25,098 nt of DNA, taken from IMG/VR virus record IMGVR_UViG_3300008266_000427, positions 1-25,098 of that record. The stretch is one strand, 5' to 3'. A program made the position numbers and the translations under genes. Below the pieces are notes generated by a model that saw only the letters and a program-made list of their open reading frames with translations, was not told where the DNA came from and did no database searches. This document shows, piece by piece, positions 8,778-20,773 of the stretch. Position 1 is the stretch's first letter; every line of letters starts with the position of its first letter. The stretch is from a virus.

Positions 8778-8805
8778 CCCCCCGGTTTGCGCCGGGGGGT
8801 TTTTT
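8778..8805 (+). terminator. Strong rho-independent terminator
   Basis: CCCCCCGG, loop TTTGCG, CCGGGGGG and then six Ts (8800-8805) make an 8-bp all-GC stem with a U-tract, a textbook intrinsic terminator for + strand transcripts. On the - strand the hairpin is followed by TAACAGG, which lacks a U-tract, so it looks one-directional. The T-tract ends on the first base of the giant gene's stop codon, so the two convergent blocks are separated by less than 100 bases. Confidence 0.92.
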
Positions 8806-11800
8806 CATTTCTGGCGGTTCTTTTCTTCCCGCTTGTCTGCCGCAAGTCGGGATGGGAGCAGTGTCTCCGCGAATGGACCTACGTTCTTCTCGGTCAACGT
8901 GATGCCTCGGAAAGACTTGGCACGTTGCTCCTGCTTGCGCTCCAACGAGTCCACAAGGTTGTCGGTCGTGATTTGGTACGTGGGGTACTTGTTGTTGAAC
9001 TTCTGCATATCACCGTAGTATTCGGTGTAGGCATCGAAGTCTTTCTCCCGGTACGCACGGTCGATCTGATTCATGATCTTGGTGCGCTCGTTCAAAATCT
9101 TCTGCTCAAGGCCGATGACTTTGAAGGTCACGTACTGCGTATTCGCAAGCAGGTCTGAGCGGAAGCCGACAGCTTGGAAGATCAACTCGCCTGTGGTGAA
9201 CGCATCGCGAGACAGAATCTCCGCACCCTTGTTGTCCTTTGCGCCCTCTTCGTAGTAATTAGCTGCGTTGATCCAGTTACGGAAACCAGCAGGGGCGGCT
9301 TTGAGGACACCCTTCTTGTAGTCACCCTGCATGAACGCATCGTACGAGTCGATAAGAGACAAGATCATGTTGGCGGATGGGCCAGCCTTCTCCACTGCCA
9401 AAGCTATGGCGCTTTCGCGTGTGGTTGCAGTTTCTTTGGTGTCGCGCAGCCACATGTTGTTCAGGCTCGTACGGCTGGAGATGTCCACACCTGTGATGGC
9501 GTTGACAGGGCCGCGCTCAATGACGTCGGCGAGATCGTATCCAGCAATCTGAGTACCACCAAGCTGTTCCTTGAGCCAGACAGTGCGCCACCACAACTCG
9601 TAGCTCATGTTCTTGACTTCCTCGGGCCACTCATCATCCTTGAGGGAGTTCCACATCGCGCCGAGCAAGCCCATGACTGTGCTGAAACCCCACAAGCCGA
9701 CTGCGCCGCCGAGCACCCATGTGTGGCCCATAGTGCCGAAGAACTTCTTGGCCGCTTCAAACCGAGTGCGACCGTTCATTGGCTTGACCATCTCCACAAA
9801 GTTCCTACCCAAGAACAGGGTCATGTACACCGGGTACATCATGAACTGCGTAAGAATTCTGCCCGGAGCGCCCTTCATAAAGTCAGGGCGGTTGTACTGG
9901 CCGTAGTTACCAAGGGCTTCGTTGGTATCGTAGACAGCGTTGTCCACCGAGGTCTCATGATCCCGACCTGCTTTGCGGTTCAGTCGGTACGCTGCAAGGA
10001 ACATGGCCTCACGAGACATACGTTCAGTCGAGTGCATCAACCCGCCGAGCACCAGTGCGCTGACAGTGTCTTTGGCAAACTGCACCTTGGGTGAGGGAAT
10101 ATCGTCGGTCGGCGTGGCCTTGTAGCCCAGCGCATCGCGTGCGTATGTGGAAGTGGTCAGATCACGACCCATCATGTCTTTGATAGCGCGGCGCTCATCT
10201 TCGCTGCGGGTGACGTTTTCAATAGATGGAGGTGCCCAAGAGAAGGTGCCGTCGGCGTTTTTCTTCATCACACCGAACTCGTTCCACACCTTGAGCATGT
10301 TGCCCATCTCGGCGTAGGCTTTGCCGACACCGTACTTTGTAAGCACGGGGATGCCAGTCTGAAACAAGCTCAATGGCTGGAGTACCGCCGAGGAGATACC
10401 GCCCAGATAGAAGATGAACGAGAACTTGTTGAGCGCAGCTGCGATTTTCTCGCCAAAGGATAGCTCGCCCACCGACAGTTCATCAGACACACGTCGCTCA
10501 AAGGTGGCAACGTAGGGCTCATATATTGGGCGGTTCTTGATCGAGTCACGAGCCTGAGACAGCGAGTTGCGCAGCAGGGGAGCGTACTTGATCCGGGCAA
10601 GCTGAGTTGCCATCTTGGTGGTCGTGTCGGCCACGTTGCGCAGCAAGTCGGTGCGGAAACCAGCGAAGCCCTTACGGTGAATGAACTGCTTGCGGAAACT
10701 CTGCTCGGGCATTGTCTGCAAGTAGAGCTGGTACACCGCATCCTTGAGCTGTTCCTTGGCTTCTGGGGTGAAGTCAGTCTTGGCCCCGGTCTTGTCAATC
10801 TCGGCAAACACACCAGACAGAAGCTGGCTGTTGCCGACTGTGGTTTTGCGCAGGGCACTGATGTCGTTGCCGTACACAAACTCTTCCGACTCCAGCAAGT
10901 CTTCCATGTTCCGGGCCCGGCGCTTTTGGAACGCAGCATCCGATTCACCGGGCTTTTGCTTCACTTTCTCGTCGGCAAACCCTTGCATCGCACGGTCACG
11001 CTCGCCCATGCTTTCAAACATGAAGAACTTGCGAGTCTCGCCTGTGCCGATCGACAACCAGAAATCCCCACGGCGCACCAGCGGGAAGTACGGAGTGATC
11101 TTGCTTCCGGTCTCGTATATCGCCCTGATCTTCTTGATCAGGTTGGCCTGCTCCGCGATTGGCAGACCCGACTGTGTGATTTGGTCATCAAGCAACTTGG
11201 AGAAGGTGTTCGACAGAATCTCAAAGTGGCGCTTGACGCGGTTGTAAATGCGCTGACCTTCTGGGCCGAGTGCAGCGTATTGCGCATCGAGGTCTTTGTT
11301 CCGAACAGTCTGGGACTTGTCCGCTGGGTCGTACTCGGCGAGAGTAGCCATGTGCGTGATTCTGTCCAGCTTCTTGCGCAGGGTTGGGTCCTTGCGGAAT
11401 GCACGAGAGATGTCGTTGGTCAGATCACCCGCACCCTTGAGAAGCGTCTCAGTCATGCCGCTCATTTTCTGCATCAACTTGTGGGTGTTGCGCAGCTCGG
11501 GAACATCTCGCCCGGTTATTTCCACGATGAAGTCGTTCGTCATCACGCGAGTCAAAGCTGCGCGTGCGCCGAGGTTCATGCGGCTGTAAAGGTCACGGAT
11601 AGCCGGGATTACCTTGCGGGGGTCCTGCGCCATCTGCAGCAAAGACACTGCCTTGCTGTATTCGTCCCCGTTCTGGGACTCCTCAAATTTAGCGTTCGCT
11701 ACTTTTACCGCACGGTTCAGCTGTTGCTGGGTACGGACTGCATTTCCAACCGACGAAGTTTCGCCACCATCTCCGGCAGGCTGGCCGACTTGTCCAACAC

Positions 11801-14800
11801 TTTGAGCGCTTGCTCCAACCCCTGCCGGTACGCTGGGTCCTCCTTGTCCTGCTGCGCGTTCGCCTTCCATTGGCTCAGAAGCGCCTTCATCTCCGATTTG
11901 TTGGTAGCTAGCGTCCGCGAAGCGGTTGCCACGAGGTTTGATATTGCCACTGCGGAACTCCTTGTTCAAAAATTGGAAGATGTCATCGTTGTCATTGATG
12001 ACTTTGGTCAGGTCCTTTTTGGCCTGTTGTAAATCAAACGATGGGTGAGTGTCAAGCAGCGTCATGATCTTCTGCATCTCAGAAGCAAACTCGCCGCCGT
12101 GGTTGCGCACACGGTAGTGCGCCATCTCGTGAACCATCGTGCCGATCATAGACACTGCAACTTGCGCAGGGGTATCACGCAGGTCGGTCGTAGCCGGGTT
12201 GATGAACATGCCCTTGAACGGCACCACGATGCTGACACCGTAATACTCGTTGTCAATACTCACGCCAAAGGCTTGATCCGCCATACCAGAGTATGAGTTG
12301 TCAACCGACAACAGAGCATCACGCAGCAGGTGGAACGTCTCGCCGATTGCCGACAGGTACTTGTTGACACGAGTGGCACCGAATTGGTCACGCGCAAGGT
12401 CGGACAAAGACTGAGGGGTGCCAGTAGGTGCTTGGACAGGTATATCGTTCATAGCCGCCCACTCAAAAACTTTTGAGGGGACGCCAGAATAGTCAACAAT
12501 CTTAGTCCTGCCGGGGCCGTATACACTCGTGGTACCGTACACGCTCATCCAAAAGCGCCCGTTACCGAGATCAACCATCTCGTATCTTTCGGGGTCACTT
12601 GCCACTAAATCGTCGAGCGCCTTCTTTGCATCTTCTTCAGACACAACATTTGCACCCGTCGCCGTGTTGTCGTGGATCATGACCTTGGTCGAGTCGATCT
12701 CATTCTGCGGAATGGTCAGCTCGTCAATACGGATGCTCGTCTTCTCCAAGTCTTTGGCAGTCAACTCAGGCAGTGCGCGGTTGTTGACGTACAGCACGCC
12801 TTCACGAACTTCCACTTCGTCGCCGGGCTTGATCAGCGTGAATGCGTTGTCACTCGGAGGGGCGGTCGGCTCCAATTCTTTTGCTTCAGTCATCGACCCA
12901 TCAGAGTTGACGTACTGCACCGTGCCAAAGTTCTTGACACCATCGGCCAGATCGAGCTGGCTGTAGATGGCGGTAATGTAGTTGAAGATTTTGCCGAAGT
13001 CGTCTTTGGCTACAGCTGAGAAGTTCTGGCGATTCAAGTCAAACGGATACCCAGCATCTTCTGGCTTGACGTTCTCGGCGGGGGTCACGTCTACATAAAA
13101 CGTGCGCTTGATTTGCTTACCCTCGAATCCGGGACGGTCCTTGATCGACATGTCAAATTGCCACAACCCGTTGGACAGCACATGGGTGTTGCCTCTATAC
13201 GGTGGGTCTGTCTTCTCTTTGGACACGTAGATACGTGCAGTGCCCCAAGCAAAGTTGACGTTTGCAAATGGGGTGTAGTCGTTGACAGGAAAATTGGAGC
13301 CGATTGGTAGCTGCTCCGGGCCATACCCGTAATCGACGCTGACATCAATGTCACCAAACAGCGGGCTGAACTCCAGCACGGGGGCGTTCTTTAGGTCCCA
13401 CTTGCTGAAGTTAATTTTTTCCTGCTCGCCAGTGGACTCGTTGGTGAAAGTCTCAGGAATAGTCACAGTCACCGCAGTGCCGTGGCCATCGGGGAACAGA
13501 GTTTCAATATAGCGCTGAACGGTCTCTGGGTCTTCAGTAACTTCGATGTTAGGCCCTCGGTCTGGATCATCCAGCGCGGCTTTCAAGTCATCACCGTTGG
13601 TGACCATGCGAGAGATCACACCATCGCGCAGCGACACGACTTCAAGCTGCTTGTTCTCAAACAGGAACAGCATCTTGGCAACGCCGAGGCCACCGGACGC
13701 ACGCTTTGTCTCTTTGACAGTACCAGCAATCTGCAGGAACTGATTGCCCATCACGCTGGTCGGCATACCAAGGCCGTTGTCCACAACACGGATAGAGCGG
13801 TTGGTATCGTCGATCTTTACATCAACACGACCTTTGGTCAGCTGCCCTTGTTCCAGCGAACCCTTGATGGCGTCGAATGAGTTCTGGAACAGCTCTTTGA
13901 TCGAGACCAGCGCAATATCTTTTGGCGTGCCGTACAGCTTGGAGCCGAGCATCTTGGCCAGACGCTGCACGTTCGCACTAGGGCGAGCCTTAATTGTTGT
14001 TTCTTCCGGCAGCGGCTCGCTGGCCTTTGGCTCTTCCTTCTTGCCAAACCCAAACATAGAGCTGGCTTGCTCCCCACGCGCTTGGTACTGCGGTGCACGA
14101 GTGCTCAGGATGGTGTCGGTCACGACGATCAAGTCGGTCAGAGCGTTGGTGGTGTCGTCGCCCATGCCAAACAACTCGCGGATGCCGCGCACGAAACGGT
14201 TGAAGTACGAGGTGTCTTCCTCGTAGCCTTGGGCCTTCATCAAAAACTGCTGGAACTCTGGGTCGGTCATGCCGTACGCAATGAACTCGCGAGGGTCTTC
14301 CAACACTTCGCCTCGGTCGGCGAGCAAAGAGAGATACTCGGGCAGCTGCCCCTTGGCAGACATGTCGTTGAACGTGCTGATGGCACTGTTCATTGTGCGG
14401 AGCAAGTCGGTTGCCGAGCGCACCAGCGGCGAGTTGAGGCTGACACCCTTCTTGATTGCTTCGATAGCCAGAACAATCTTGCGGTTGGTGGCTGCGTGCA
14501 GCAGCTCGTGCAGGATGGTCAGGTTGTTGACGCCTTGGTTTTCGCCAAAGGACGCACCGCGCACATAGATCACACGGTCGCCCGTGTTGTAGTTCTCGAT
14601 GTACAGCGCAATGGAACGATCCCAGTGACGGGCATTCTTTGCCGACTTGAGCTGAGCTGGCAGCTCTTGGCCTTCTTCGATAACCACAAACTTGACGTTG
14701 GTTACAAAGCTGCGCAGGCGCTTGCCAAGCGCCTTTTGGAAGTCGTTGCCCGTCTTGATGATGTGGTTCAGGGCTTGGACACCGTTGGTGAACTTGCCAA

Positions 14801-17504
14801 ACGTAGTATCCGGCGTGCCCTTGGTCACACGGGAGGAGCTTGCCTGCTCGCCTTGAGCCGCAGCCTGCGCACGCTTTTGCGCCTCCATACCTGCTTTGAG
14901 GTCGGCCTTTTCCTTCTCGGAAATGTCGGGGCGGGCCAGCGCAGCTTTGACACGTTCACCTACCTTAGTACCCCGAAGCAGCGGGTCGGCCTGCAGTTGG
15001 AGCAAGCCCTTGATGGCTTCCCGGCGCTGGGCTCGGTGGTCGGCCAAAGCGGCTTCGTAATCCTCGTCCGTCTCAAAGTCACCTTCGTCGGGCATCGTAG
15101 CCAGCTCGTCCAGCTTGTTTGTCAGTCGGAGGATTGAACGCTCAGCCTTAGCCTTCGCAGCCTGCACAGGCTTCTTGCCCTCGGCACGTTGTTGCTTCTC
15201 TTCCTCAGTCAGAACAGCGGGTCGGCCACGCTTGGTCTTGGGTGCAGCGGCGGCGGCGGTAGTAATTTCCGCAGTCGGCACAACTTGTTCTGTCGAACCT
15301 TCGCCTTCAAACGTACCAGCAGCGTTAGGGAACTTAACTCGGGTGTATGAAACACCGTTTTCTTCCACCGGGTTGCTGATAACTTTGACGGGGTATCCCT
15401 GCCATAAAGTTGGCTGTTCAGTTGGCTGTTCAGTTGTCAGTGCAGCGGGCTGCTTGCTTTCTCCCGCCACAGTGCTTGTAGCAGCCTGTCCAGTTGGAAC
15501 CATTCCAGTTGGCTGAGTGACTCCAGCTCCTGCGGGGGCGGTGATGCCACCGGGCTGTCCAGCCATTCCAGCGCTTGTTCGATCTGCGGCACCGACAGCG
15601 CCTTCGAGTTCGGCTTGTTCATCTGCTTGCGCCTCCTCTGTAGCTTGTTGAATAGCCAGTTGGTTTGCTTGTTGGGGCTCCATACCGCCGTCAACAAACT
15701 CACGGGTCAGCTCAATGATGCGGGGGGCCAACACCTTACGCTTTTCAGCTTCTTGGGAAGCCAGCATCTGCTCGGCTTGCACCTGCGCATCCTCTGTGGG
15801 GATACCCGTGGCTTCGATCTCGGCGGTAAGAGCGGCCAGCTGTTCTTCTTTTGAAGCAGTGGGGGGCGCAGGTTGTACCGAGGGGGGCGCAGGTTGTACC
15901 GAGGGGGGCTGCGCAGCGAACCCTTCTTCGTCAAACGTGGGTTCGATCCGCCCGTCGAGGGTTTCAGCAGGAGGAGTTCCAGCAGGAGGAGTCCCAGCAG
16001 GAGGAGTCCCAGCAGGGGGAGCTTCGGCAGTTTGACCGGGGGGCACCATCTGATTGCGGCGCTCGGGGACCAAGAACCCTTTTTCTTTTGCCGCGAGCAG
16101 GGCTTGGTAGTACCCCGAATCGTCGGGACGCTCATACTTGGGAGCGCTGGACTGTAGTGCTTCCGACAGTTTTTGGACGCCTTTTGCGCCGCCGATAATC
16201 GTACCGGCTTGAGCACCGGCTTGGATAACCGTCTGGCGCAGTGTCTCTTCCAGCTGCTGGTACAAGTCAACCAAGCTGGGGTTCTTGTTCAGGCCGATTC
16301 CGGGCACGACGTCAATGCCGTACTGCGTAGCGGTGGTAGCCAGCTCGGGTGGTATTTCCTTTGCAACCGCCATCCCAACGTACTTTGGAATAGAGTCATA
16401 TCCGTACTTGGCTACGTGCTTGGTCAGGCCAGCAAACGCCTTTTCCATACCAAACCGCTCGAAGAAAATCTCCGCAGCGGCCATAGGAATAGCACGCGCA
16501 GCGGCGGCTTCGGGGGATTTACCCGCAGCTCGGGCTTGACCGTAGGAATCACCAAACTGCTGGATACCCGACTGTAAGAGAACGGGGGCTGCGGTGCCTG
16601 TCAGCACGCTCAAGGCAATCATAGGGGTCTGCACCGCCAAAGAAGCAATAGCTTGCTGCGCCGAGCGTTCAAAAATGGTGTCCCCTTTGGGGATGGCTTG
16701 TTGCCCAGCCTCGACCATACGGCGGGTATTGGCCAAGTTACTCTGCATCTGCTTGTTGCCGGTGATGTCGGCAAAGACGTTCATCAAGCCGAGGCCCGTC
16801 TGCGTGGCCCGTACACCAGCTTCCGCGCCAACACGGCCAAGGAACCCAGAGTCTTTGAGCTCTTCGCGCATTCGCGCTGCTTCTTGGTCGGCAATCTCAC
16901 CTTCGACGTCCCGGGTCATTTGCTGGAGATCAGGACGTGCAACGCCTTGTTGAGCTTGCTGTCGGGCAAGGTTCAGGGCTGCCTCGGCATTCATGCCTTG
17001 TTTAATGAAGCGCTGCTGTTGCTGCTCCAGACGCAGGTCGGTCAGGTCCTGAAGCGCGGTGGGTTGTGCCTTATCCCTAGCTGCGTATCGGCCTTGGATT
17101 ACTTTGGCTGCACGCCCGTAAACGTCTGGGCGTTGGAGCATCTTCTCAAGCGCAGCGGTGCGCTTGGCTTCCGGCATTGCATTGAGTTGCGCTTCCAGAC
17201 CCGCCACAAACTCGGGGCGAATCATCTTGTCTTCGGTCGGGAGGGGACCGGGCATTTGCTGCCCTTGAAGCACGCTTTCCCGCTTGGGCGCAGGTTTGTT
17301 GATGAAGTCTACAAGCCCAGAAGTTGGGCCAAAAGGCGCAGGCTTACCGCCTTGTGGGGCGGCGGGCGCGGGGGCAGGGGCAGAGTCTTGTCTGGGGGCC
17401 GACTCGGCTATGAGGCGCTTGACTGTGGCTTGAATAACCGATGGATCGGTGCCGTCGGGAAACTCAAGAATTCGTCCGTCAGCCAGTTGCGCTTCGATAG
17501 CCAT
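8805..17504 (-). CDS. Giant polyvalent virion-type protein: two zincin motifs, GHKL ATPase, hydrophobic C-terminal region
   Basis: 2899 aa, start ATG with AAAGGGG upstream, nine bases after the previous stop. Rough domains: 1-35 small N-terminal module (ADGRILEFPDGTDPSVIQ); 40-110 Pro/Ala linker; 120-470 helical, with a hydrophobic stretch near 290-360; 490-560 Pro-rich tandem repeats; about 905-1130 first zincin, HELLH at 999-1003 with a candidate third ligand E1073 in REFIAYG; 1170-1520 Bergerat ATPase, with N-box E1204/N1208, DNGLGM 1242-1247, SGGLG 1270-1274 and GT at 1342-1343; about 1560-1850 second zincin, HEMAH at 1792-1796 plus H1802 (SprT/YgjP-like spacing); 1850-1920 linker; 1920-2350 helical, with YFPLVRRGDFW near 2140; 2350-2899 hydrophobic segments near 2365 and 2605, like large polyvalent-protein regions of phages. 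Being last in the structural cassette suggests an ejected internal virion protein. No lytic transglycosylase or RNA polymerase motif was seen. Confidence 0.9.
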   Translation of the reverse strand: MAIEAQLADGRILEFPDGTDPSVIQATVKRLIAESAPRQDSAPAPAPAAPQGGKPAPFGPTSGLVDFINKPAPKRESVLQGQQMPGPLPTEDKMIRPEFVAGLEAQLNAMPEAKRTAALEKMLQRPDVYGRAAKVIQGRYAARDKAQPTALQDLTDLRLEQQQQRFIKQGMNAEAALNLARQQAQQGVARPDLQQMTRDVEGEIADQEAARMREELKDSGFLGRVGAEAGVRATQTGLGLMNVFADITGNKQMQSNLANTRRMVEAGQQAIPKGDTIFERSAQQAIASLAVQTPMIALSVLTGTAAPVLLQSGIQQFGDSYGQARAAGKSPEAAAARAIPMAAAEIFFERFGMEKAFAGLTKHVAKYGYDSIPKYVGMAVAKEIPPELATTATQYGIDVVPGIGLNKNPSLVDLYQQLEETLRQTVIQAGAQAGTIIGGAKGVQKLSEALQSSAPKYERPDDSGYYQALLAAKEKGFLVPERRNQMVPPGQTAEAPPAGTPPAGTPPAGTPPAETLDGRIEPTFDEEGFAAQPPSVQPAPPSVQPAPPTASKEEQLAALTAEIEATGIPTEDAQVQAEQMLASQEAEKRKVLAPRIIELTREFVDGGMEPQQANQLAIQQATEEAQADEQAELEGAVGAADRTSAGMAGQPGGITAPAGAGVTQPTGMVPTGQAATSTVAGESKQPAALTTEQPTEQPTLWQGYPVKVISNPVEENGVSYTRVKFPNAAGTFEGEGSTEQVVPTAEITTAAAAAPKTKRGRPAVLTEEEKQQRAEGKKPVQAAKAKAERSILRLTNKLDELATMPDEGDFETDEDYEAALADHRAQRREAIKGLLQLQADPLLRGTKVGERVKAALARPDISEKEKADLKAGMEAQKRAQAAAQGEQASSSRVTKGTPDTTFGKFTNGVQALNHIIKTGNDFQKALGKRLRSFVTNVKFVVIEEGQELPAQLKSAKNARHWDRSIALYIENYNTGDRVIYVRGASFGENQGVNNLTILHELLHAATNRKIVLAIEAIKKGVSLNSPLVRSATDLLRTMNSAISTFNDMSAKGQLPEYLSLLADRGEVLEDPREFIAYGMTDPEFQQFLMKAQGYEEDTSYFNRFVRGIRELFGMGDDTTNALTDLIVVTDTILSTRAPQYQARGEQASSMFGFGKKEEPKASEPLPEETTIKARPSANVQRLAKMLGSKLYGTPKDIALVSIKELFQNSFDAIKGSLEQGQLTKGRVDVKIDDTNRSIRVVDNGLGMPTSVMGNQFLQIAGTVKETKRASGGLGVAKMLFLFENKQLEVVSLRDGVISRMVTNGDDLKAALDDPDRGPNIEVTEDPETVQRYIETLFPDGHGTAVTVTIPETFTNESTGEQEKINFSKWDLKNAPVLEFSPLFGDIDVSVDYGYGPEQLPIGSNFPVNDYTPFANVNFAWGTARIYVSKEKTDPPYRGNTHVLSNGLWQFDMSIKDRPGFEGKQIKRTFYVDVTPAENVKPEDAGYPFDLNRQNFSAVAKDDFGKIFNYITAIYSQLDLADGVKNFGTVQYVNSDGSMTEAKELEPTAPPSDNAFTLIKPGDEVEVREGVLYVNNRALPELTAKDLEKTSIRIDELTIPQNEIDSTKVMIHDNTATGANVVSEEDAKKALDDLVASDPERYEMVDLGNGRFWMSVYGTTSVYGPGRTKIVDYSGVPSKVFEWAAMNDIPVQAPTGTPQSLSDLARDQFGATRVNKYLSAIGETFHLLRDALLSVDNSYSGMADQAFGVSIDNEYYGVSIVVPFKGMFINPATTDLRDTPAQVAVSMIGTMVHEMAHYRVRNHGGEFASEMQKIMTLLDTHPSFDLQQAKKDLTKVINDNDDIFQFLNKEFRSGNIKPRGNRFADASYQQIGDEGASEPMEGERAAGQGGPSVPAGVGASAQSVGQVGQPAGDGGETSSVGNAVRTQQQLNRAVKVANAKFEESQNGDEYSKAVSLLQMAQDPRKVIPAIRDLYSRMNLGARAALTRVMTNDFIVEITGRDVPELRNTHKLMQKMSGMTETLLKGAGDLTNDISRAFRKDPTLRKKLDRITHMATLAEYDPADKSQTVRNKDLDAQYAALGPEGQRIYNRVKRHFEILSNTFSKLLDDQITQSGLPIAEQANLIKKIRAIYETGSKITPYFPLVRRGDFWLSIGTGETRKFFMFESMGERDRAMQGFADEKVKQKPGESDAAFQKRRARNMEDLLESEEFVYGNDISALRKTTVGNSQLLSGVFAEIDKTGAKTDFTPEAKEQLKDAVYQLYLQTMPEQSFRKQFIHRKGFAGFRTDLLRNVADTTTKMATQLARIKYAPLLRNSLSQARDSIKNRPIYEPYVATFERRVSDELSVGELSFGEKIAAALNKFSFIFYLGGISSAVLQPLSLFQTGIPVLTKYGVGKAYAEMGNMLKVWNEFGVMKKNADGTFSWAPPSIENVTRSEDERRAIKDMMGRDLTTSTYARDALGYKATPTDDIPSPKVQFAKDTVSALVLGGLMHSTERMSREAMFLAAYRLNRKAGRDHETSVDNAVYDTNEALGNYGQYNRPDFMKGAPGRILTQFMMYPVYMTLFLGRNFVEMVKPMNGRTRFEAAKKFFGTMGHTWVLGGAVGLWGFSTVMGLLGAMWNSLKDDEWPEEVKNMSYELWWRTVWLKEQLGGTQIAGYDLADVIERGPVNAITGVDISSRTSLNNMWLRDTKETATTRESAIALAVEKAGPSANMILSLIDSYDAFMQGDYKKGVLKAAPAGFRNWINAANYYEEGAKDNKGAEILSRDAFTTGELIFQAVGFRSDLLANTQYVTFKVIGLEQKILNERTKIMNQIDRAYREKDFDAYTEYYGDMQKFNNKYPTYQITTDNLVDSLERKQEQRAKSFRGITLTEKNVGPFAETLLPSRLAADKREEKNRQK
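15409..15432. repeat. 12-bp direct repeat, two copies
   Basis: GTTGGCTGTTCA occurs twice back to back inside the giant gene, giving a doubled EQPT in the linker after residue 690. It looks like a recent replication-slippage duplication in a disordered segment. Confidence 0.85.
15861..15902. repeat. 21-bp direct repeat, two identical copies plus a partial third
   Basis: The unit begins with six Gs followed by CGCAGGTTGTACCGA; the second copy is identical and GGGGGGCTGCGCAGC begins a diverged third. It encodes a doubled PPSVQPA-type motif on the - strand near residues 535-548 of the giant protein. Identical copies imply recent expansion. Confidence 0.9.
15966..16025. repeat. 15-bp tandem repeat, four copies
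   Basis: Units AGCAGGAGGAGTTCC, AGCAGGAGGAGTCCC (twice) and AGCAGGGGGAGCTTC encode four consecutive PAGTP/PAE-like pentapeptides (residues 494-513) in the giant protein. All units keep the reading frame. The repeat probably forms an extended flexible spacer between globular parts. Confidence 0.92.
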
Positions 17505-17513
17505 AAATCCCCT

Positions 17514-20315
17514 TTAGCCGGGGAGCAAGTTCCCCTGTGCGTCAAATTGTAGACGAGTACCGCCGCCTTGTGGGGAATTAATGTTTACGGCTGAGTTTCT
17601 TTTTGCGTTAGCCCGGACCCCAGCTGCCGCGTCTTGCAGCATTTTTTGCTTCCCGGCTGCATCTGCCTTCAGATAGTCGGGCGTAAACTTTATTTTTTGC
17701 TGGGCTTCGGTGATAGCTTCGCCCAACCGTACCTCCAAACCAGCCTCACCCAGACCTGCACGAGTGGGGCCAAAGTCCGAAGTCTTAGTCTGAGCCACGG
17801 CACGGCGAAGGGCATTCACGCGGTTAAGCGTAGCATTTGTCGGATTGGTTTCGTGCGCAATCTCCGCTTCAGCCAGCTGTTCGTTGATTTTCAGGGGCTT
17901 AGGGGCACCGGACCCAGCGGCTTTAGTCGGCTTGGTAGCAGTGGCAAACTGGCCAGCCACTTTAGCCAGCGCACTTGCTTTCCTGATACCGAACTGCTGC
18001 GCGGCATCGTGGTCTTTGCGAGCCTGATCAGCTGCCGCAATCGCATCGCGGTTGAGACCCATACGTTCTTTGCGCAAAGCATCGGCGGCGTTTATCTCCA
18101 TATTCATCAACGAACGTCTCTGAGCGGAGTCAGCACGCAGGGCTTGGCCGTAAGACTCAGCAAACGCGCCACCGGCACGGCCAAGACCTTGCGCCAAACC
18201 ACGACCTTGGGTTAGAGCGGCAGCTGCTTGGAGTGCAGCTAGACCACGACTTTGGCGCAGTTCTTTTTCGCTGTCGCCGCGCATGGCGGCAATTTTTTCC
18301 TTGATGTCGGCGTACGGGCTGGGGCCAGCGCCTTCTTCCAGCATCTTGCGGCGGCTGGTGATCGCTTCGTTGTACTTCTCAGCCGACATGGGGGTGTATC
18401 TAGCACCGGCTACGTTAGCAAGCATTTGCGGAAAGAGCCCGGTCAACTTCTTGTAGACCTCGGGATTACCCTCACTAGGCATCATCCCGCCCACCAACTG
18501 GCCAAGCCCAGCTTCGTTTTCATCCTCGTCGCCCGAAAACGCCACGACGCCGCCACCGGCCATCATTTGTTCTTGACGCTCTTGGGGGATGGCATTGAAC
18601 GCATTGCCGAGACCCGAACGGATTGAGGCACGCTGTGCCAGCTCTTGGTCAATCTGGGCTACCTGCGCCACATCCTTACGGGACATCGCCATATTACGGG
18701 CTTGACGCAACTGGGCGTCAGAGAGCTTGTCCAGAATGTTATCGACGTTTTGCTCGTCAGTGACACTGCCGCCTTCGGCGTAAGAGGAAACGGTACCGCC
18801 TTTGGCTCTGCCCATCATCTGGCCGATACCGTAAGCGCCCATACCGAGAGCACCGATGTTTTGCGCCATAGTCGGCTGCGCCGCATACATAGACTGCACT
18901 GTACCCATGGGAGTGCCACGGATAAGGTTCGACATGAACTCCAGCTGCTGATATGGATGACGCTGTTGGTTGAGGAAGTCCTGATACTGCTGAGACAGAC
19001 GTTGCTGTTCGAGGGCTTGTTGCTGCCCGCCGAGCTGACTCTGCAGACCGATGGCTTCCTTCTGTTGACCAAACTGCTGTTGGCCCAAAGCACCCAACTG
19101 ACCCGCACCTGTCATGGCTGCCTGCAGGGCTTGAAGGCCCATAGAACCACCAAACTGCCGCGACTGTTCAGCCAACTGCTGAGCTGACTGCCCGAATTGA
19201 GCGCGTTGCGCTGCTTGCTGGGCTGCTTGGCTGGATGCAAACTGACGAGATGCCTCTTCGGCTTGTTGAGCCGACAACCCGTACTGGGCTTGCAACTGCG
19301 CAGCGGTCAGACCTTGACCTGCGCCAAACTGACGAGATTGCTCGCGCAGACGCTGAGCTTCCATCGCCTGCTGTTGGTTGGCAAGTTGAGCCTGCAAATT
19401 CTGCCCAGCACCAAGCTGCTGGACGCCAAGTCTGGCTGCAAGGTTTTGCTGGCCCACGGTTAAGCCCGCGCCTTGGTTCGCTTGCTGTGCTTGCAGGCCG
19501 TAGCCCTGCTCGGCATTGAATTGCTGTTGCGCGTTTTGGAACGCCTGCTGCAAGCCGCGAGCCTGAATGTCACCTTTTTGCTGGGCCAGATTGCGTGCAG
19601 CTTCAGCATCCAAAATGGCTTGGCGGCTACCACCAAACGCACCAGCGCCTACGGCTTGTGCACCGCGCTGAGTCCCTGCGATGTCCGCAGCTCGTTGCGC
19701 TTCGCGTTGCTGAATGTTCACCACATTCTGCATGTAAGGGTCCATGTACGCTTCGGCAGTGCCGGGCTGGCGGAAAGACTGGGTGCTCACCCGCTCCGCA
19801 GGGCCCATCTGAAAGTCCTGCAGAGCTTGCGCTTGCACGCGATCCGCGCCAAACTGCCCCGCTGCGTATTGACCCGGCGCTTGGAATTGGTTTTGGAAAT
19901 TGGCGGACTGGTAGGGATCAAACCCTTGGTATTGGTTCTGAAATTGACCGGGGGTGTATCCCATGTCCAGAGCACGTTGCGCTGCAGTGCCAGCAATACC
20001 CATACCTTGGCCGATAGCTGCGGATGGCCCCAGATTCTCAGCGCCCGTAAAAGCTGTGTTTTGTAAAGATTCAAACCCTGCAATGCGCTTTCCGCCGTAA
20101 GGCGTGTAATCGCGTTTAGAAAGAGCTTCGCCTCTGGCCAGTACGTCTTGTGCTGCCGGTTTTGCCCAGTCTGGCAATTCAGTTACTGTGGTTTGGGTAC
20201 CGCCGCCACCGCCACCGCCGCCGCCACCATAAATGATGCGCCCGCCTTCTTTGCGGGTTACGGATTCGCCAAGGGGTTCACCCAAAGCTTCAAGTTGTCG
20301 GCGGGAGTAGCTCAT
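17514..20315 (-). CDS. Gln/Ala/Gly-rich coiled putative ejection (internal virion) protein, 933 aa
   Basis: The ATG overlaps the GNAT gene stop (ATGA). After a short N-terminus there is a run of ten glycines (residues 30-39), then a motif-poor region rich in Q, F, Y and P (QFQNQYQGFDPYQSANFQNQFQ). Residues about 200-450 are a long Gln/Ala helix-forming region with a 29-residue period (SRQF/LG at 327, 356 and 385). Around 500-600 lie Gly-turn motifs (RAKGGTVSSYAEGGSV; MMAGGGVVAFSG), and the remainder is helical and charged, ending in LQFDAQGNLLPG. There are no catalytic motifs. Size, composition and position between the tail-tip gene and the giant protein are like T7/P22 ejection proteins that line the DNA channel. 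This is inferred from context; direct homology is not claimed. Confidence 0.85.
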   Translation of the reverse strand: MSYSRRQLEALGEPLGESVTRKEGGRIIYGGGGGGGGGGTQTTVTELPDWAKPAAQDVLARGEALSKRDYTPYGGKRIAGFESLQNTAFTGAENLGPSAAIGQGMGIAGTAAQRALDMGYTPGQFQNQYQGFDPYQSANFQNQFQAPGQYAAGQFGADRVQAQALQDFQMGPAERVSTQSFRQPGTAEAYMDPYMQNVVNIQQREAQRAADIAGTQRGAQAVGAGAFGGSRQAILDAEAARNLAQQKGDIQARGLQQAFQNAQQQFNAEQGYGLQAQQANQGAGLTVGQQNLAARLGVQQLGAGQNLQAQLANQQQAMEAQRLREQSRQFGAGQGLTAAQLQAQYGLSAQQAEEASRQFASSQAAQQAAQRAQFGQSAQQLAEQSRQFGGSMGLQALQAAMTGAGQLGALGQQQFGQQKEAIGLQSQLGGQQQALEQQRLSQQYQDFLNQQRHPYQQLEFMSNLIRGTPMGTVQSMYAAQPTMAQNIGALGMGAYGIGQMMGRAKGGTVSSYAEGGSVTDEQNVDNILDKLSDAQLRQARNMAMSRKDVAQVAQIDQELAQRASIRSGLGNAFNAIPQERQEQMMAGGGVVAFSGDEDENEAGLGQLVGGMMPSEGNPEVYKKLTGLFPQMLANVAGARYTPMSAEKYNEAITSRRKMLEEGAGPSPYADIKEKIAAMRGDSEKELRQSRGLAALQAAAALTQGRGLAQGLGRAGGAFAESYGQALRADSAQRRSLMNMEINAADALRKERMGLNRDAIAAADQARKDHDAAQQFGIRKASALAKVAGQFATATKPTKAAGSGAPKPLKINEQLAEAEIAHETNPTNATLNRVNALRRAVAQTKTSDFGPTRAGLGEAGLEVRLGEAITEAQQKIKFTPDYLKADAAGKQKMLQDAAAGVRANAKRNSAVNINSPQGGGTRLQFDAQGNLLPG
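19077..19424. repeat. Degenerate 87-bp (29-residue) tandem repeat within the 933-aa gene
   Basis: The SRQF[GA] signature recurs with serines at residues 327, 356 and 385, exactly 29 apart, and an earlier QLGAGQNL at 300 aligns 29 before QFGAGQGL. The 14-base string CAAACTGACGAGAT appears identically 87 bases apart (19238 and 19325). The period of 29 fits a long helix with eight turns per repeat. Confidence 0.65.
20199..20228. repeat. Trinucleotide run encoding ten glycines
   Basis: Ten consecutive ACC/GCC triplets (GGT/GGC on the coding strand) encode Gly30-Gly39 of the 933-aa protein. Mixed triplets reduce but do not remove the chance of slippage; a change of whole triplets would only alter linker length. 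Confidence 0.9.
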
Positions 20316-20773
20316 GATTGCTCCGTGCTCAAAATTTTTGTGTACAGCTTGTCTGTGTGCTTGTAGCCAAGATACTCAAACAGCTTTGAATTGTCCATAT
20401 GGATTTTCGTGTGCATGATGATGCGATTGACACCATCCGCACGCAGGGCTTCTTCCGCAAACTGGAATAGACGGATACCCGTACGTCCCAGTCGATGTTC
20501 TTTTCTGAGGAAATAAATATCCTCAAAGGCTGTCTTGCAAGACTTATAGTGTAAATGCGGTTGCACAATAAAGATAGCGTAACCGATTAACCCATTCTCA
20601 TCTCGCGCAGTAACGCACCGCAAAAGCCCCGCCACATAGAGTCTTCCGTAGCCTTCATAGTCGGGCATGAGTGGGAAGTCCTTGGTGACGCACAACTCGT
20701 CGTAGTGCAGCGGGATGACTTCCTTCAGCTCCTCGATGAAGGTAGCGGGGTCTTCTACAGCGTACTCAATCAT
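20312..20773 (-). CDS. GNAT-family N-acetyltransferase
   Basis: 153 aa, close to a minimal GNAT domain. Residues 60-70 (NGLIGYAIFIV) are the central strand. EDIYFLRKEHRLGRTGIRLFQFAEEAL (84-110) contains the beta4 strand and the pyrophosphate-binding loop HRLGRTG (93-99), a phage-type variant of the R/Q-xx-G-x-G/A motif. RADGVNRIIMHTK and LFEYLGYKHTDKLYTKIL (131-148) are the terminal strand-helix-strand. It would transfer an acetyl group from acetyl-CoA to an unknown amine. It overlaps both neighbours by ATGA, so it is expressed with virion proteins. Possible targets are virion proteins, host proteins or small molecules; the sequence does not decide. No signal peptide or membrane segment. Confidence 0.88.
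   Translation of the reverse strand: MIEYAVEDPATFIEELKEVIPLHYDELCVTKDFPLMPDYEGYGRLYVAGLLRCVTARDENGLIGYAIFIVQPHLHYKSCKTAFEDIYFLRKEHRLGRTGIRLFQFAEEALRADGVNRIIMHTKIHMDNSKLFEYLGYKHTDKLYTKILSTEQS

Follow-up and report, generated by a model that had tools for sequence, protein, structure and literature searches.

The giant ORF of the window, by which is meant the whole stretch of DNA analysed here (a single viral contig of 25,098 bases), encodes a 2899-aa protein (positions 8805-17504, minus strand, from ORF translation) in which a GHKL ATPase with an S5-like transducer is linked through a beta-rich connector to a zincin domain (zincin 2) that is its obligate partner. The earlier note on this DNA had described an ATPase flanked by two zinc proteases. 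A GHKL domain and two zincin-type domains do lie in one polypeptide, but the flanking arrangement does not extend to the family, with the first zincin (zincin 1) moved or undetected in many relatives, and the triad was rejected as a conserved unit. That unit is better described as the dyad of GHKL-S5 and zincin 2, zincin 1 being an ordinary part of the protein. The dyad is very likely an intact module. Its status as a new cargo module, within a class of giant proteins already familiar from phages, is well supported, and there is a realistic chance that it is a new kind of ATP-gated protease. Our preferred reading, held with moderate confidence, is that the region forms an injected, nucleotide-gated zinc protease cassette lying within the giant polyvalent protein that a podovirus-like phage ejects.

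Every motif named in the earlier note was found in the 2899-aa protein at the residues it gave, namely HELLH (residues 999-1003), E1204 and N1208 within ELFQNSFDA, DNGLGM (1242-1247), SGGLG (1270-1274), GHGT (1340-1343) and HEMAH (1792-1796). To these H1802 was added as a candidate third zinc ligand of zincin 2. In 2000 shuffles of the giant protein the HExxH motif had a mean occurrence of 0.008 and never appeared twice, and the extended HExxHx5H pattern was absent from all of them. Chance motifs are ruled out by these shuffles together with conservation among relatives.

The giant gene, all features of which lie on the minus strand, appears to code for a putative ejection protein of the polyvalent (PLxRFG) type, with relatives of similar length present in IMG/VR. 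Residues 1-900 gave no family match. The C-terminal part possesses an LPD39 domain (residues 1981-2112, positions 11169-11564; PF18858, E-value 2e-11) and a PLxRFG/tail-700 domain (residues 2138-2874, positions 8883-11093; NF032893, E-value 2.6e-102; DarB-like phrog_10089, E-value 1.1e-58), its score against NF032893 being 343 bits compared with a cut-off of 100, which places it among the PLxRFG-domain proteins.

Zincin 1 (residues 930-1150, positions 14055-14717) is of the internal-virion-protein type, with a homolog of solved structure (PDB 9sfn_G, phmmer E-value 9.6e-17), tblastn matches to phiKMV-type internal core proteins (E-value about 1e-14) and weaker ones to N4-like virion RNA polymerases. 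Its HELLH (positions 14496-14510) lies within a predicted helix and is followed downstream by E1073 (positions 14286-14288) of the DPREF segment, a Glu in every aligned row listed and likely the third zinc ligand, judging from the pattern of polyvalent MPTases given in PMC5512222. Of 85 loci, 38 have zincin 1 ahead of the dyad and 13 have it after zincin 2, while the zincin 1 profile detected nothing in 27, all without 5′ truncation; seven further loci are 5′-truncated. Some of these 27 contain an HExxH of another, unassigned type. Zincin 1 is regarded as a separate, common internal-virion-protein module with a processing or structural role.

The plus strand of the window holds replication genes, namely exonuclease, helicase and primase-helicase (PHROGs), with its first ORF taken from its reading to be a DNA polymerase. 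The virion block on the minus strand comprises a stabilisation-type structural protein (phrog_3287, E-value 2e-43), proteins of 212 aa and 715 aa, a GNAT acetyltransferase, a Gln-rich protein of 933 aa and lastly the 2899-aa protein. The GNAT gene (positions 20312-20773, minus strand) sits within this block, and the Gln-rich gene (positions 17514-20315, minus strand) lies directly upstream of the giant gene. The Gln-rich product is a possible ejection protein, matching a DNA ejection protein family weakly (phrog_4287, E-value 0.002) and being similar to gp33 of Roseobacter phage CRP-901, with strong composition bias. Phage CRP-901 has a similar gene order, and its block also includes a GNAT gene. 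In phage DSL-LC04, retrieved via the structural protein, the last gene of the block is annotated as "DNA transfer protein", and convergent nuclease and helicase genes come after it. Searched with all dyad and PLxRFG profiles, the genes that occupy this last place in CRP-901, DSL-LC04 and HTVC023P gave no match, so that the comparison with DSL-LC04 and CRP-901 is positional evidence only. The suggestion in the earlier note that the protein probably travels with the virion is borne out as the most likely case by the PLxRFG/tail-700 C-terminus, LPD39, the virion-type zincin 1 and a gene position at which a cultured relative has a DNA-transfer protein. On homology, that of zincin 1 included, and gene order, the giant protein is very probably packaged and ejected as a virion protein. 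The PADLOC defence models gave zero matches for the window protein and weak ones in a few relatives.

The GHKL (Bergerat) ATPase domain occupies residues 1165-1350 (positions 13455-14012). Its N-box (ELFQN, with E1204 and N1208; positions 13881-13895) is invariant wherever present, and its G1 box DNGLGM (positions 13764-13781), glycine-rich lid box SGGLG (positions 13683-13697) and GT box GHGT (positions 13476-13487) are conserved in relatives. Pfam, NCBIfam and PDB profile searches assign residues 1196-1300 to the GHKL superfamily, where they lie at roughly the same distance from Hsp90, topoisomerase VI-B and a restriction-associated GHKL family. The Pfam family HATPase_c_3 matched the isolated region with 27.3 bits, above its curated cut-off of 25, and matched 23 of 23 diverse relatives (best E-value 6.5e-10). 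The S5-like or Hsp90-middle-like transducer follows at residues 1350-1520 (positions 12945-13457), and Foldseek aligned about 400 columns with Hsp90 N+M and GyrB 43K structures. In an AlphaFold2 model of residues 930-1875 (31 sequences, pLDDT 77, pTM 0.51) these matches were to Hsp90 N+M (8eob, E-value 3e-11) and the GyrB 43K fragment (4pu9, E-value 2e-10, TM by target 0.50); with a pTM of 0.51, the placement of ATPase and protease relative to each other in this model is unreliable. The transducer contains an invariant R1492 (positions 13029-13031) in YPFDLNRQ, likely the catalytic-loop Arg (compare DLPLNVSRE of HtpG). The S5 basic residue of GHKL ATPases is described in PMC2292703, which mentions no protease. 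With the N-box Glu and Asn, DxGxG, lid and GT box, a predicted Bergerat fold and a transducer bearing a basic residue, the architecture of an ATPase with an S5-type transducer is well supported by the models, and the earlier claim of a complete GHKL signature stands. The giant protein would be expected from its sequence to hydrolyse ATP.

As phage T4 RIIA is itself a GHKL domain with a variable C-terminal domain (PMC7824862), the dyad could in principle be a GHKL of the RIIA group that gained a zincin tail and acts, like RIIA, against abortive infection. One distant relative (L043) matches RIIA proteins (E-value 4e-6), and gp154 of Arthrobacter phage Atuin aligns over the GHKL and into the S5 part (probability 94.6, E-value 6.8e-8). 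However, HtpG aligns better to the same profile (hhalign probability 96.7, compared with 72 for one RIIA), RIIA family phrog_2979 is matched by just one of 24 relatives (best E-value 0.0023), the window proteins scanned include no RIIB partner, and RIIA is a separate gene that is not known as virion cargo. Membership of the RIIA group was rejected, and an RIIA-like role is considered highly improbable. Atuin gp154 (L029:5962-8091) is an unannotated protein of 709 aa with an N-terminal GHKL and a lengthy C-terminal portion; it lacks HExxH and looks RIIA-like in organisation.

Between transducer and zincin 2 lies a beta-rich connector (residues 1520-1620, positions 12645-12947), found in the surveyed loci except the truncated L047. 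Its segment GDEVEVREGVLYVNNRALPE has a likeness to signal peptidase I (Pfam Peptidase_S26), recorded for 25 of 54 relatives but falling below the cut-off in the window protein. No Ser/Lys catalytic dyad of signal peptidase I was seen in the connector, and a signal-peptidase domain was rejected in favour of a fold-level or chance resemblance. The connector is followed by a hypervariable insert (residues 1621-1690, positions 12435-12644) with a dN of 0.54 and a dS of 1.9, against about 0.07-0.09 and 0.7 in the flanking domains, values that point to replacement by recombination. The insert is missing or replaced in other relatives. It is predicted to form an alpha-beta-beta-beta-alpha mini-domain with a dsRBD-like order of elements, and is possibly a swappable specificity part.

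Zincin 2 (residues 1690-1870, positions 11895-12437) is recognised from its conservation, its co-occurrence with the GHKL domain and its model. It carries HEMAHYRVRNH (residues 1792-1802, positions 12099-12131), an HExxHx5H pattern with three His and one Glu that are invariant wherever present, and H1802 would be the third zinc ligand. In a second AlphaFold2 model, covering connector and zincin 2 (54 sequences, pLDDT 88.8), a long helix and three strands precede a helix ending in HExxH, with further helices behind, the same order as that given for zincin domains of polyvalent proteins in PMC5512222; zincin 2 differs from the zincins described there in its likely third ligand, a His six residues past the second His of the motif. 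A Foldseek search of zincin 2 against the PDB returned nothing significant, the plausible zincins listed being Wss1 (5jig, E-value 0.37, probability 0.60) and BepA (E-value 1.1) and the remaining matches looking like noise. Against viral models, the connector-zincin 2 model gave one strong match, the UniProt viral protein A0A516L4L2 (E-value 1e-19, 27% identity), so at least one member of the family is already deposited. Searched singly, 47 of 54 relatives matched the YgjP-like family and 39 of 54 matched WLM (best E-value 3.8e-6). The window protein itself lies below the family cut-offs for YgjP (18.7 bits against 26) and SprT (14.1 against 25.6) and is not listed for WLM, and membership of these families by curated cut-off was rejected for it. 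Structure prediction had been named in the earlier note as a check on the region; it returned the Bergerat and S5 folds and placed HELLH in a helix, while for zincin 2 the order of elements fits but the PDB fold match is not significant. From sequence and model the zincin fold is likely, and zincin 2 is probably an active protease.

In a variant of the preferred reading, the GHKL-S5 dimer would close round incoming phage DNA, as in MORC, topoisomerase VI and gyrase, and a Wss1/SPRTN-like zincin would strip off or destroy proteins attached to it, for instance restriction or nucleoid proteins. The models for topoisomerase VI-B and the BbrUII restriction GHKL match 23 of 23 diverse members, the nearest zincins by sequence are WLM/YgjP-like, and the annotation of related C-termini is DarB-like antirestriction; Wss1 and SPRTN are DNA-dependent proteases according to PMC5127644 and PMC4559962. 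However, fold and family matches fail to separate DNA-type from Hsp90-type GHKL domains, WLM membership is unproven with weak Foldseek support, and no DNA-binding element was identified. A DNA clamp is judged unlikely.

The pairing of GHKL-S5 and zincin 2 was followed in scans of 2.9 million viral contigs, seeded with sequences and alignments and later with each half of the dyad alone. About 100 distinct contigs with the dyad were obtained, several of them near-duplicates. In the half-seeded scans, limited to the best 80 loci each, both halves were present in 200 of the 200 complete frames listed, a count in which overlapping loci of one contig recur; the sole one-half frame is truncated by a contig end. 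The order of the dyad is constant and its spacing is 92-188 aa. Across 85 loci and the window, E1204, N1208, D1242, G1246, G1271, H1792, E1793, H1796 and H1802 are invariant wherever present, the single exception among the dyad's catalytic residues being L069 with two conservative changes (G1244A and T1343S); these residues are otherwise kept down to about 32-35% identity. The possibility raised earlier that homologs lose the key residues freely is therefore contradicted. A dN/dS of 0.08-0.12 in GHKL, S5 and zincin 2 (seven close sequences) indicates purifying selection.

Phage structural proteins sometimes retain enzyme folds without activity, and the motifs might accordingly be kept only as folds in a structural ejection protein devoid of catalysis. 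Such a relic is very improbable here: throughout the 85 loci neither half varies in its catalytic residues, L069 deviating by its two conservative changes only, while N-terminal and linker regions fall to about 20-30% identity. The distances of GHKL-S5 and zincin 2 are correlated (Mantel r 0.81, reached by 0 of 2000 permutations). In the 51 loci with the full set of zincin 1, GHKL and zincin 2, the distances of each part correlate with those of the others (0.88-0.92), and zincin 1, where present, follows GHKL no less closely than zincin 2 (r about 0.91 each). Within a lineage, then, zincin 1 passes down together with the dyad, and between lineages it changes. The survey of co-variation called for in the earlier note thus divides the three parts: GHKL-S5 and zincin 2 were never separated, but zincin 1 is separable between lineages.

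By tblastn, the dyad was detected neither in 50,697 phage records nor in 72,556 plasmids, where the matches covered the GHKL part only (HtpG, RIIA, "ATP-binding protein"); the plasmid matches were accordingly rejected as relatives of the dyad. A bacterial or prophage origin was also rejected, as none of the candidates from two scans of 84,980 species genomes was confirmed as a relative, although these scans needed short exact peptide patterns and are a weak test. The dyad pairing was found here only in uncultured viruses. In the literature searched, where subscription papers are thinly covered and a negative result is weak, there was no description of a GHKL or HSP90-like ATPase with a zincin or metallopeptidase, in agreement with the earlier note, which knew of no description of the triad. 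PMC5512222 gives zincins as the commonest domain of polyvalent proteins, and its main text names neither GHKL nor HSP90. A number of loci deserve mention in their own right. L067 (2-16669) has an open frame of at least 5556 aa with the dyad, its 5′ end truncated in the fetched locus, and no Pfam family matched its first 3330 aa. In L085 (6464-12148) and L083 (7184-17248) the dyad lies beside a ddrB-type ParB domain and LPD22 respectively, both polyvalent settings. In two alphaproteobacterial plasmids (L030:4887-6470 and L031:3935-5503) a GHKL "ATP-binding protein" gene adjoins a DGQHR-domain gene with helicase and ParB nearby, which looks like a conserved and possibly defence-related cluster.

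The strongest rival to a host-directed protease is self-handling, whereby the GHKL part would serve the giant protein as its own Hsp90-like chaperone, refolding it once it has passed through the tail, and zincin 2, together with zincin 1, would cut the polyprotein into functional pieces, with no host target. Zincins have been proposed to process polyvalent proteins (PMC5512222), the best GHKL matches include models of the Hsp90 family, and the N4 virion RNA polymerase, an ejected giant of about 3,500 residues, has an HExxH domain and is proposed by its authors to refold in the cytoplasm after ejection (PMC12633501). However, with the dyad absent from the phage records searched, giant ejection proteins would seem to manage generally without it; zincin 1 already offers a candidate for the processing; and there is no evident reason why a chaperone and a processing protease should be neighbours, yet the two halves always occur together. 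Chaperoning and self-processing are therefore taken as a serious alternative of lower probability than the gated cassette.

GHKL ATPases are ATP-driven clamps, and the families met in this analysis act on DNA, client proteins or phosphotransfer; none was found among them with a clamp permanently built onto a zinc protease. Hsp90-type GHKL units, unlike AAA+ rings, are not processive unfoldases, and a gated protease therefore fits better than the unfolding device considered in the earlier note. The obligate pairing of clamp and protease, with each active site intact, is best explained by functional coupling. In the proposed mechanism, the GHKL ATPase, the S5/Hsp90-middle transducer and the short beta connector are permanently linked to the compact HExxHx5H zincin. 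On ATP binding the lid would shut and the GHKL heads would form a dimer, and the transducer, with R1492 touching the nucleotide, would relay the closed state to zincin 2, so that cleavage would be restricted to the closed state or to a captured client. Carried in the virion, the whole giant protein would be taken into the host along with the DNA, where the protease would cleave a host protein; the most plausible target would be one encountered by the incoming DNA. That ATP controls the protease is a balanced proposition, and the same measure of confidence is given to a host or defence protein, rather than the phage protein itself, as the target. More tentatively, the dyad may represent a class of enzyme not described before, in which an Hsp90/gyrase-type ATPase gates a zinc protease delivered in the virions of diverse uncultured phages, with a swappable insert selecting the host target. 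If the dyad is active, phages would possess an energy-gated protease without an AAA+ ring, delivered at infection. Its separation from zincin 1 defines a 720-residue piece for expression.

Like Hsp90/HtpG and GyrB, TopVI-B, MutL and MORC, the dyad has all GHKL boxes, an S5-type transducer and a candidate catalytic-loop Arg, but no attached zincin was found in those families and its likeness to any single one is weak; membership of Hsp90/HtpG was rejected on the NCBIfam equivalog cut-offs (27.5 bits against 455 and 18.3 against 371). T4 RIIA is likewise a phage GHKL with a variable C-terminal part, but is a stand-alone gene with an RIIB partner and no known zincin, and its profile match is weaker than that of HtpG. 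Zincin 2 shares with WLM (Wss1), YgjP-like and SprT-like proteins the HExxHx5H pattern, a small helix-sheet-helix core as predicted by its model, and repeated Pfam matches in relatives, whereas the window protein is under their cut-offs and the fold match is not significant. Zincin 1 resembles phiKMV gp37 and PDB 9sfn in its HExxH and downstream Glu, a match limited to this one of several modules. A further likeness is to the polyvalent PLxRFG/DarB-like proteins (Iyer et al., 2017; PMC5512222), which are also giant and multidomain, with a PLxRFG C-terminus, LPD39 and a virion-type context, and in which zincins are mixed with an unrelated ATPase. DarB itself combines SWI2/SNF2 with a methylase, while the window protein matches DarB-like profiles in its C-terminus only, and membership of DarB antirestriction was rejected, SWI2/SNF2 and DNA methylase being absent from the giant protein in Pfam, NCBIfam and PHROGs scans. 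The N4 virion RNA polymerase is similarly a giant ejected protein with an HExxH domain (its C1 domain; PMC12633501), but its enzyme cargo is an RNA polymerase, whereas that of the window protein is the GHKL-zincin dyad.
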